Assembly: GCF_944388875.1 (NCBI RefSeq)
Contig: NZ_CALXKQ010000004.1
Coordinates: 62,001-126,000, forward strand
Length of the DNA stretch: 64,000 nt
Source of the DNA: an uncultured Brachyspira sp.
GTDB taxonomy: Bacteria; Spirochaetota; Brachyspiria; Brachyspirales; Brachyspiraceae
Direction of reading: 5' to 3'
Part shown: positions 5,458 to 17,336 of the stretch, in pieces
Position numbering within the stretch: position 1 is the first letter of the stretch
Layout: each line of letters starts with the position of its first letter
Made by a program: the position numbers and the translations under genes
Notes under the pieces: generated by a model
What the model saw: only the letters and a program-made list of their open reading frames with translations
The model's database searches: none
What the model was told of the DNA's origin: nothing

Positions 5458-5751
5458 TTAATCTAAAGGCATAGAATCTATAATAGAGTTGGCAAGAGAG
5501 TTTAGCACTTCTTCTCTCAAAGCTCCGTCTTTCATATATAATTCAAGTCTTTGTTTAGCTTCTGCTATTTTTTCTTCTCTAACATCCGGGGCTTCTTTAA
5601 TGATATTAATGAGTTTTTCATTTTGCAAAGCTAACCTTGATTCATTAGAAATTTCTATTCTATCAGAACCAGTTTTAGAAACTTTATCATTATATTTAAC
5701 ATTTGATTTTTGCTGTATATTTGATGTGCCGCCTATTTTATCAATTGTCAT
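5458..5751 (-). CDS. flgM: Anti-sigma-28 factor FlgM
   Basis: 97 residues from the ATG at 5751 (MTIDKIGG...). The protein is polar and probably disordered in its N-terminal half, with the FlgM pattern SDRIEISNESR, then KQRLELYMKDGALREEVLNS and a short C-terminal helix. FlgM holds sigma-28 (FliA) inactive until the flagellar hook is complete. A longer open frame upstream is the antisense-free overlap with rsmI in another frame and should not be used as the start. The start lies inside the rsmI 3' end (11-base overlap), so the two share a transcript. Confidence 0.82.
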   Translation of the reverse strand: MTIDKIGGTSNIQQKSNVKYNDKVSKTGSDRIEISNESRLALQNEKLINIIKEAPDVREEKIAEAKQRLELYMKDGALREEVLNSLANSIIDSMPLD

Positions 5752-6580
5752 AATCTGACTCCTTACATAAATTATTTTCGGCATTAGCTTCGCATACTTT
5801 AGATTTTCTATTATCAATAATGATGCAAAATTCACCTTTAGTAAGTATACTACCATCTGTAAAAAAATCAAGGATATTTTTAGCTTCTGAACGTATAATT
5901 TGCTCAAATTGTTTAGTAAGTTCTCTTCCGATAACAATATCCGTTTTTTCTCCAAATATGTTAACAATATCCTCTATACATTCTTTTACTCTATATACTG
6001 ATTCATATATTACTATTATAGTTTTTTGATTATTATATAATTCTTTTAACTGATTTTTTCTTTTACCAGATTTATTTGAAAGAAACCCAGCAAATAAAGT
6101 ATTGCCAGATAGTCCTGAAACTGAAAGCAGGGAAGTAAAAGCGGATATTCCTCCTACAGGTACAATTTTTATATTTTTTTCTATAGCTATTTTTATTATA
6201 CTTACACCCGGATCACTTATGCATGGAGTCCCTGCATCGCTTATAATAGCAGCAGATTTTCCATTTGCTATGTTTTCAATATATTCATTTATTTTATATT
6301 CAGATGAGTGGCTATGATAAGAAAATAAAGTATTTTTTATATTATAGAAGTTTAATAATTTGATAGCTACTCTTGTATCTTCAGCTAATATAAAATCAAC
6401 ATTTTTAAGTATTTTTAAAGCTCTTATAGTTATATCTTCTATATTGCCTATTGGAGTAGCGACAACATATATAACTCCATTTTCAATTTCATTTTTATTA
6501 TTGCTGCTGTTTATAATTTCATCTATGAATTCAGAATCATTTTTAATATTATGAATTTTTTCTTTATTATCCTTTTTTAT
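5741..6580 (-). CDS. rsmI: 16S rRNA 2'-O-methyltransferase RsmI, non-canonical start
   Basis: Continuous minus-strand frame of about 279 codons encoding the tetrapyrrole-methylase-fold RsmI that methylates C1402 of 16S rRNA with SAM. Visible motifs: VVATPIGNIEDITIRAL, the LAEDTR box, SYHSHS, IISDAGTPCISDPG, VPVGGISAF and the C-terminal GRELTKQFEQ. No ATG, GTG or TTG occurs in frame before the catalytic motifs and an in-frame TAA lies just upstream. A strong AAGGAG site sits 7 bases before an ATA, exactly where ATG is expected. Either ATA/ATT initiates, or ATG mutated to ATA, or the base is a consensus error. The frame is otherwise intact. Confidence 0.85.
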   Translation of the reverse strand: MKKDNKEKIHNIKNDSEFIDEIINSSNNKNEIENGVIYVVATPIGNIEDITIRALKILKNVDFILAEDTRVAIKLLNFYNIKNTLFSYHSHSSEYKINEYIENIANGKSAAIISDAGTPCISDPGVSIIKIAIEKNIKIVPVGGISAFTSLLSVSGLSGNTLFAGFLSNKSGKRKNQLKELYNNQKTIIVIYESVYRVKECIEDIVNIFGEKTDIVIGRELTKQFEQIIRSEAKNILDFFTDGSILTKGEFCIIIDNRKSKVCEANAENNLCKESDYDN

Positions 6581-6587
6581 AATAATA

Positions 6588-6593
6588 CTCCTT
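6588..6593 (-). promoter_or_regulatory. Ribosome-binding site fixing the rsmI start
   Basis: AAGGAG on the minus strand, 7 bases from the ATA at 6580-6578 and 4 bases from an ATT. The spacing equals that seen before the ATG at 11341 in this window, so it marks the ATA as the likely start. Confidence 0.7.
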
Positions 6594-6767
6594 AATTTAT
6601 ATTTTTAATTATATATTAAAGTTTTCATTAATACAATAAAAAATATTTGATATCAAGTAGTAGCGTGTATTAAAAGTTTTCACGTGAAACATTTTATATT
6701 ATTTAGTTTTAACTGTTTTAATATGCTGAGGCTTGTAAAATATAATAATTAATATAAAATATTTATT

Positions 6768-14912: not shown

Positions 14913-17336
14913 ATGTTAAATGAGAATAATATACAAGCACCTTTTCAATATAAAATAAGTGAAAATAGTTTCGAATTATTAACTAGAAACGGAGAGATAT
15001 ATCTTAATACTAATAATGTTCAGGTAAAAGTTTTTGAAGGACAGAGAGTTTTTTGTGCTGATATTGGATATGCTGTTGATGGGGCATTGGAAGAAATGGA
15101 GTTTTTAATTGATGATATAAAGGTATATCCTGTTTTGCTTGAAGAGTTAAAAGATTTACAAAGTATGGAAGTTAAAGAAAATGAAATATATTTAATTAAA
15201 AATGATATTAATTTTAAGAGTATAATTTTCTTTCCGCCTATTGATTTAAATAAAAATTTTAAATATACAATTACAACCTATAGTTCTACTTTTTCTTCAT
15301 TTATGTTTGATGAGATTGCCAAAAAGTTAAATATAATTGATATGAATATACCTATAAAAAACTATTATGAAGATACTGATTATAAAATTAATGACGTAAT
15401 AAAATATAACGGATATCTTTACAGAGTTTTTAGGGAGTTTACAAGCGATGGTACAGATTATTATTTGCATTCAAATTGTAATTTAATAACTCCTTTCAAA
15501 AAATTAGAATTAGGCATTCAATATAAAATAAATGATTTAGCAGAATATAATAATAATTTTTTTACAGTGCAAAAAGGTTTTACTTATGAAGCATCTTCTA
15601 ATTTAAATGAATTGTTAAAGCCTATTGAGGACTTTATAGAATGGAATGATGAAATAAAAAAGGTTTATAAAAATCAGATTATATTAAAAGATAATTTCTG
15701 TTATTTAGTTCTGCAGACATCAGAAAATTATTTATTTGATGAATTAATACAATTTAAAAGAATAGACTATCTGAATAAAGCTTCAAATACTTTTTATGAT
15801 GATGAGAATTCAAATTTAGGAAATGAAACAAATACAGTACAAAAAGCAATAGAAAAATTAAATAATACAAAACAAAATAATTTAATATCAGGAAGCAATA
15901 TAAATATAGATGGTAATACTATAAATGTAAACGGCGGAGTTTCTAAAGACTATTCTATAGGAAGCGGGTATTTAACTAATGACTTAATTATATATGATAA
16001 CAGACTTTATATAGTAAATGAAAACTTTATATCTTCGGATTGGCAGACAGATAAAAATAAATTAACTTTATTAACTTCAAGCGGATCATTATCAACAGCT
16101 TCTCAAGTAGCTTATGATAATAATAAAACTAATTTGGAATATGCATCAGGATACAGCTTTCCAAAGTTTAAATATACAATTCCTGATACTATTAATTTAG
16201 TATTAACAGAAGCAAGCAGTACAACAGATTATACAGCTGCAATTACAAAACAGTCAGATGGAAGCTATGTATTGAATGCTAATATTACTAATTTTAATAG
16301 CCTTTATACTCAAAAATCAATAGCAATACAAATAAAAAGTATAGAAAATAAAACAGCAAGTTTAGAAATATTAAGTATAATGAATATATTTTGGAATACA
16401 AACAATACGGAATGGATTGCTAACAATGGAGATGTAAGTATAGAAGGAATAGAAGCCTCTCTTCAATTTAGTTTTTCAGGAGTTGGGATATTAATTTCAA
16501 AAACAGATTTAAGTGATTTTACTGAAGAGCCTTATAATATTACATTAAGTATAAAAAACAGACAGCTTCATAATTTAGACGCTTATTTTCTAGGAATAGG
16601 AAGCGATGCAAACTATCTATCATATTTAAATCTTAAAAATAATAATTACTCAGTAAAATTAGCAGGAACTATAAATGGAACTGGTTCTAGTTCTTCTGCA
16701 ACTACATCATCATATAGTTTTTTAAGTACTTTTTTATCTAATTATTTTAATTTGGCTTCATCTGGAAGCTATACAAATACAACAGAAATTACATCAAGTA
16801 CTGGCAAGGCTGTGAAATATTATTTTATGCAAAACGCTTCTGATACTAATGCTGTAGATTTAGTTATAGCATATCAGGACGGCAGTACAATAAGTAATGA
16901 TGATATATTTACTTTAAATCTAACTCCTGATTTGAATGCGACAGTAGATCCTATTTATTCTTCAGTTGAAAATGTACAGTAATTAGGTGAAGCATTAAGT
17001 GAAAAGATAGACAGTAATTTTAATAATTTAAATATTATAGCAGATGAAGAGGAACATTTCAGCGGAAAATATTATGAGAACGCAGATGGGGGGAGAAAGC
17101 CTATCTATTACCGAGCTTTTAATGGTTCATTTGCTAATGGATATACATGGAACTCTAATAACACATGGAATGTAGATACACCTGTTGATATTTTAGCTAC
17201 TAATTGGATGGTAAATTATTCTAGTACAAAAGAAATATCTACAGAGATAACTAAGAATGATGGAACTTGGGATTACCCTTATATAGGATTAATATCATTT
17301 GAATATACAAAAACAACTGATAGTTATGAATATTAA
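14913..17336 (+). pseudogene. Phage tail fibre gene interrupted by in-frame TAA
   Basis: Residues 1-689 (to 16982) form a long fibre-like protein: repeated segments of YKINDVIKYNGYLYRVFR type, a helical stretch KAIEKLNNTKQNN typical of trimeric fibres, and Ser/Thr/Asn-rich repeats. After TAA (16980-16982) the same frame stays open for 117 further codons to TAA at 17336, including ALSEKIDSNFNNL and the fibre-tip module NADGGRKPIYYRAFNGSF. No ribosome site or start precedes the second part. So this is one gene of about 806 codons carrying one nonsense codon, unless readthrough occurs. Confidence 0.75.

Follow-up and report, generated by a model that had tools for sequence, protein, structure and literature searches.

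Probable AUA, AUU or AUC Start Codons of rsmI in a Clade of Brachyspira

Introduction

How can a gene be translated when its reading frame holds neither ATG, GTG nor TTG? This question is raised by rsmI, on the minus strand of the window (the whole stretch of 64,000 nucleotides analyzed here). The initial annotation had noticed an ATA lying 7 nt after an AAGGAG sequence, with no usual start codon ahead of the catalytic core, and it had considered a genuine initiation at AUA or AUU, a silencing of the gene by an ATG to ATA change, or an error in the consensus sequence. The comparison with related genomes favors the first of these. The best explanation, to which a probability of about 0.87 is given, is a genuine AUH start (AUA, AUU or AUC), which would give weak, self-correcting expression resembling that of infC.

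The rsmI Frame and Its Leader

The minus-strand frame of rsmI extends over 287 codons without interruption, between 6604 and its TGA stop (5741). The lack of a usual start was borne out, together with the ribosome site and its spacing, and had in fact been understated: ATG, GTG and TTG are absent from the entire frame (5741–6604, minus strand), with none among the 279 codons of the coding sequence. The elements of the locus are listed in Table 1.

Table 1. Coordinates of the rsmI locus and of the other genes discussed (window positions, unless a contig of the window genome, G000, is named)
Feature	Position	Strand	Remarks
Promoter-like element	6608–6636	−	TTGTAT 6636–6631, 17 nt, TATAAT 6613–6608; putative function
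In-frame TAA stop	6605–6607	−	5′ of the rsmI ribosome site
Shine-Dalgarno AAGGAG	6588–6593	−	7 nt before the rsmI ATA
rsmI AUA start codon (probable)	6578–6580	−	ATT, ATC or ATA in relatives; followed by AAA AAG
rsmI coding sequence	5741–6580	−	279 aa, 16S rRNA (cytidine(1402)-2′-O)-methyltransferase; basis: TIGR00096, RsmI structures, dN/dS
N-terminal extension	6464–6580	−	about 39 codons, Asn/Lys/Glu rich, D-x-E-F-I-E-E-I motif
FlgM-like anti-sigma-28 gene	5458–5751	−	own AAGGAG, ATG 5751–5749; 3′ of rsmI
phoH/ybeZ-like gene	G000 C2:219085–220047	−	Pfam PhoH 293.6 bits; loci L198–L221

The spacing between the Shine-Dalgarno (SD) sequence and the ATA is typical of this genome, where the gap from GGAG to a canonical start has a mode of 7 nt and lies mostly between 5 and 9 nt. 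The predicted transcription start, at about 6601, would give a 5′ UTR of about 20 nt. The promoter-like element is near-invariant in an alignment of 18 Brachyspira genomes, its conserved TATAAT lying about 28 nt 5′ of the AUH codon; a generic sigma-70 scan does not have it on its list, because its −35 is weak. Three leaders were folded, none of them showing RNA structure beyond that of shuffled sequences (z from −0.55 to 0.85). Since the leader has no notable RNA structure, the start codon itself is likely to be the control point of rsmI.

Between the start codon and the catalytic core, the N-terminal extension keeps its frame, its motif and a third-position bias of substitutions across the clade. 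This segment can be translated only if the AUA initiates.

A parS-like palindrome, TGTTTCACGTGAAAAC, is located between rsmI and a divergent TonB-like gene (6676–6691, minus strand), and GTTTCAYGTGAAAC-like motifs are found 5′ of rsmI in most relatives, which suggests a ParB site.

The Encoded Methyltransferase

The window protein passes the curated equivalog model TIGR00096 with 225.6 bits (cut-off 167.9), and its core aligns with the E. coli RsmI structures 5hw4 and 9pzg. When this structure alignment is read against the residues described as important in the E. coli enzyme (PMC5053481), the equivalents of D100 and A124, which are AdoMet-binding, and of R174 are all retained. The dN/dS ratio of the core is about 0.063 over 17 genomes of the clade, which reflects strong purifying selection. 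From its sequence, the window gene is considered to be a working, intact RsmI, and methylation of C1402 of the 30S subunit is predicted. Silencing by an ATG to ATA mutation was rejected in view of this selection and of the conserved SD sequence, spacing and promoter.

Elsewhere, the same genome encodes another RsmI-like methylase, with an identity of about 31% (C2:34730–35392, minus strand, locus L030). It scores 140 bits, under the TIGR00096 cut-off, and is found in most Brachyspira and in several other spirochaetes.

The Start Codon in Related Genomes

The comparison comprised 26 genomes of the genus, one per species, several of them being metagenome assemblies. A close rsmI homologue was found in 24 of them besides the window genome, and one low-completeness genome has a distant paralogue only. 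In 16 genomes of one clade, window included, the homologous start codon is ATT (12), ATA (3) or ATC (1). The identity of this codon in relatives had been chosen beforehand as the test set for a consensus error, and the absence of any ATG among these 16 genomes disposes of that idea. The codon is directly followed by AAA in all 16 cases, and it is preceded by GGAG at 7 nt (6 nt in two genomes) in the 15 genomes measured, the sixteenth looking alike in the alignment. As in the window, no canonical start is present ahead of the catalytic core in 8 of the 16 genomes (window included); in the remaining ones, the pre-core canonical codons sit within the conserved N-terminal extension, with no conserved SD sequence. 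The AUH-start genes include those of the named isolates B. alvinipulli ATCC 51933, B. hampsonii 30446 and B. innocens ATCC 29796.

The tree of the rsmI core groups the 16 AUH species and two ATG species (L008 and L013) in one clade, with a support of 100/99. The SD-AUH segment has been lost in L008 and L013, and an ATG start is present. Outside this clade, rsmI starts with ATG in the B. pilosicoli group as well as in L018 and L024, which are more divergent. In the other Spirochaetota sampled, two genomes of the sister genus among them, a canonical start precedes the core. Within the clade, the basal members carry ATA, most others ATT and one ATC. The simplest account of these sequences would be a single ATG to ATA switch, in the ancestor of the clade, from an ATG-start gene, followed by a change from ATA to ATT, with ATG regained in L008 and L013; AUA, AUU or AUC would have been kept since in the other members. 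As L008, L013 and the outgroups use ATG, the AUH start of rsmI is not indispensable. Avoidance of G at this codon is not significant, 38 of the 49 fourfold sites also never showing G in these species.

A Second Gene with a Probable AUH Start

A scan for coding sequence located 5′ of the first canonical start was applied to 2.41 Mb of the window genome (about 78%, taken as stretches), which contain 1,919 coding frames; it is blind to AUH genes in which an internal Met, Val or Leu codon comes early. The top outlier is rsmI, with a coding score of 43, the next values being 26, 24 and 17. The rsmI start is not due to chance, because it is the most extreme of the 1,919 frames and because an AUH codon is found at a like SD distance in 15 other genomes. 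An SD-spaced AUH start conserved between species was observed for two of the 1,919 frames only, rsmI and phoH, which rules out a genus-wide habit of AUH starts. The split frame of prfB (release factor 2; C12:20478–21521, minus strand) was recovered by the scan and serves as a positive control, this gene being known for its programmed frameshift. As for other genes related to translation, infC starts with ATG in the 25 Brachyspira genes read and rsmH in all Brachyspira genomes read, and ksgA has a canonical start ahead of its core in all those read.

Like rsmI, phoH has no canonical start that could be used: in all 24 Brachyspira genomes read, its conserved N-terminal domain is preceded by ATT (17) or ATA (7). 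This codon lies about 7–9 nt after an AAGGA-type SD sequence, 3′ of an invariant TTGACA. In two species, a TTG is found 2–3 nt past the SD sequence, too close for normal use. The absence of G at this start codon is suggestive, since only 16 of 47 fourfold sites and 1 of 32 purine-ending sites never show G, and these site counts make it more unusual for phoH than for rsmI.

The phoH gene heads a cluster continuing with a 7TM-HD (YqfF) gene, YbeY and a CorC-like gene, a neighborhood which is that of 16S rRNA 3′-end maturation. In E. coli, ybeZ and ybeY belong to one operon, and the two proteins interact (PMC5101352).

Initiation and Possible Feedback

The claim that AUA or AUU truly initiates finds strong support in the sequences, the relatives carrying ATT, ATA or ATC at the same codon, and a genuine AUH start of rsmI is considered very probable. 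Translation would begin at the AUA (6580–6578), decoded by the initiator fMet-tRNA. It is rather likely that selection for weak or regulated expression has preserved this start. The AUH codon would hold RsmI synthesis at a low level and make it self-correcting.

A feedback loop specific to RsmI is more tentative, with a chance somewhat under one half. The 30S subunits lacking the 2′-O-methyl group of C1402 would discriminate less against AUH starts, and a shortage of RsmI would increase its synthesis from its own AUH codon, as for IF3 with AUU. In E. coli lacking MraW or RsmI, more mis-initiation at AUU has been reported (PMC13317604, which cites Kimura and Suzuki 2010). Initiation at AUC increases 2–4 fold when 30S assembly is defective, and fidelity drops upon loss of ybeY (PMC10250234). 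A proven loop of this kind is that of IF3 with its AUU codon (PMC5472188), and the conserved AUA and AUU starts of Staphylococcus aureus do function, with an output of about 10% of that of AUG (PMC13009471). Autoregulation of rsmI, as we infer it, would fit the published AUU effect of RsmI loss; this effect being modest in E. coli, the gain of the feedback might be small.

The matching start of phoH suggests that AUH starts may, in this genus, report 30S quality to the genes which mature the 30S subunit. Extended to a regulon made of rsmI and the phoH-yqfF-ybeY operon, the proposal is that 30S quality would be sensed, and homeostasis ensured, through the state of the ribosome with no dedicated regulator: immature 30S subunits would initiate more often at AUH codons, more 30S maturation factors would be made, and the loop would be closed. 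This regulon is regarded as rather unlikely.

Alternative Explanations

The alternative which survives best accepts the AUH start of rsmI as genuine and attributes its persistence to drift, or to plain selection for low expression, with no feedback through C1402 methylation; its odds are appreciable, a little short of even. An efficiency of about 10% of AUG (PMC13009471) suffices for a low-demand modifying enzyme, the genome is AT-biased and the G-less rsmI codon unremarkable, two members of the clade went back to ATG, and AUH starts are used in S. aureus by ccpN and cvfC1, which play no part in initiation. It accounts less readily for the fact that only two of 1,919 frames have such starts and that both genes act in 30S maturation, or for the genus-wide AUH codon of phoH, where only 1 of 32 purine-ending sites never shows G.

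According to another proposal, the AUH codon acts mainly on flgM, a weak initiation of rsmI lowering the coupled translation of flgM and thereby setting the FlgM level. The FlgM-like gene scores 24.7 bits with the Pfam FlgM model, just below the cut-off of 25, and the end of rsmI overlaps it by 11 nt (5741–5751), an arrangement seen in most species; a precedent exists in the GTC start of sigR, which sets the SigR to RsrA ratio (PMC5472188). However, flgM carries an AAGGAG and an ATG of its own, the outgroup species with ATG starts show an equal overlap, and in L014–L017 (the B. innocens group) rsmI ends earlier, ahead of the flgM start, with the AUH codon retained. The phoH gene, moreover, has its AUH codon without flgM. 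This coupling appears improbable.

Translation of rsmI from an upstream codon, or from an ATG in another frame with a subsequent frameshift, is highly improbable. Out-of-frame ATGs do exist, in AAT-GAT codon pairs, but they have no SD sequence and none is at a conserved position, and a real frameshift gene, prfB, was picked up by the genome scan as a separate case. In all relatives listed, in-frame stops are found 4–12 codons 5′ of the AUH codon, and the −10 element is about equally distant, the promoter falling within that span, and both routes were rejected on these grounds. The last alternative, a sequencing or assembly error (the assembly is a draft of 48 contigs) or a gene which an ATG to ATA change has silenced, has hardly any probability left, being refuted by the AUH codon of 16 independent genomes, named isolates among them, by the dN/dS value of 0.063 and by a frame open throughout.

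Relation to Known Systems

The rsmI gene of E. coli starts with ATG. It encodes an enzyme of the same family with the same active-site residues, from which the Brachyspira protein differs by its N-terminal extension. A close parallel is infC, the gene of IF3, which begins with AUU in E. coli, AUC in Streptomyces and AUA in S. aureus. As in rsmI, the AUH codon stands behind a strong SD sequence; the product makes the 30S subunit discriminate against AUH, as RsmI would do, from which a negative feedback is expected. In contrast, rsmI encodes an rRNA methyltransferase and not an initiation factor, its feedback is only proposed, and infC itself has an ATG in Brachyspira. The S. aureus genes ccpN (AUA) and cvfC1 (AUU) likewise combine conserved AUA or AUU starts with a strong SD sequence (PMC13009471), but their products are not known to influence which start codon is chosen. 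The sigR gene of Streptomyces shares a non-canonical start conserved in the genus and a position 5′ of an anti-sigma gene, and is repressed by IF3 (PMC5472188); it differs by its start, which is GTC and not AUH, and by the target of the regulation, which in Streptomyces is the sigma factor itself.

Starts with a conserved AUA or AUU were already known from infC, ccpN and cvfC1, and rsmI and phoH appear to be new members; no earlier mention of their AUH starts was found in a partial coverage of the literature. If the proposed regulation is true, a ribosome-modifying enzyme would be governed by the very error which its absence causes, extending the infC logic to rRNA modification. The m4Cm1402 modification would gain a direct regulatory read-out, and ribosome-quality sensing at weak start codons would become testable with simple reporters. 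In practical terms, the rsmI and phoH starts of these genomes are bound to be missed by gene finders restricted to ATG, GTG and TTG.

Other Frames without an Early Canonical Start

The other frames of the scan without an early canonical start, of which some were traced in relatives, have no conserved SD-spaced AUH codon, most of them having no such codon at all, and several look frameshifted or fragmentary. One of them, a coding frame of 342 codons (C8:6414–7442, minus strand), goes 75 codons without a canonical start and lacks an SD-spaced AUH codon. Just 5′ of it, near an A run, lies an ATG belonging to a different frame, which suggests a frameshift or an assembly error. In the window itself, a long open frame (16583–17336, plus strand) is broken by an in-frame TAA at about 16980, and the part 3′ of this stop, with no early start, looks like the rest of one broken gene.
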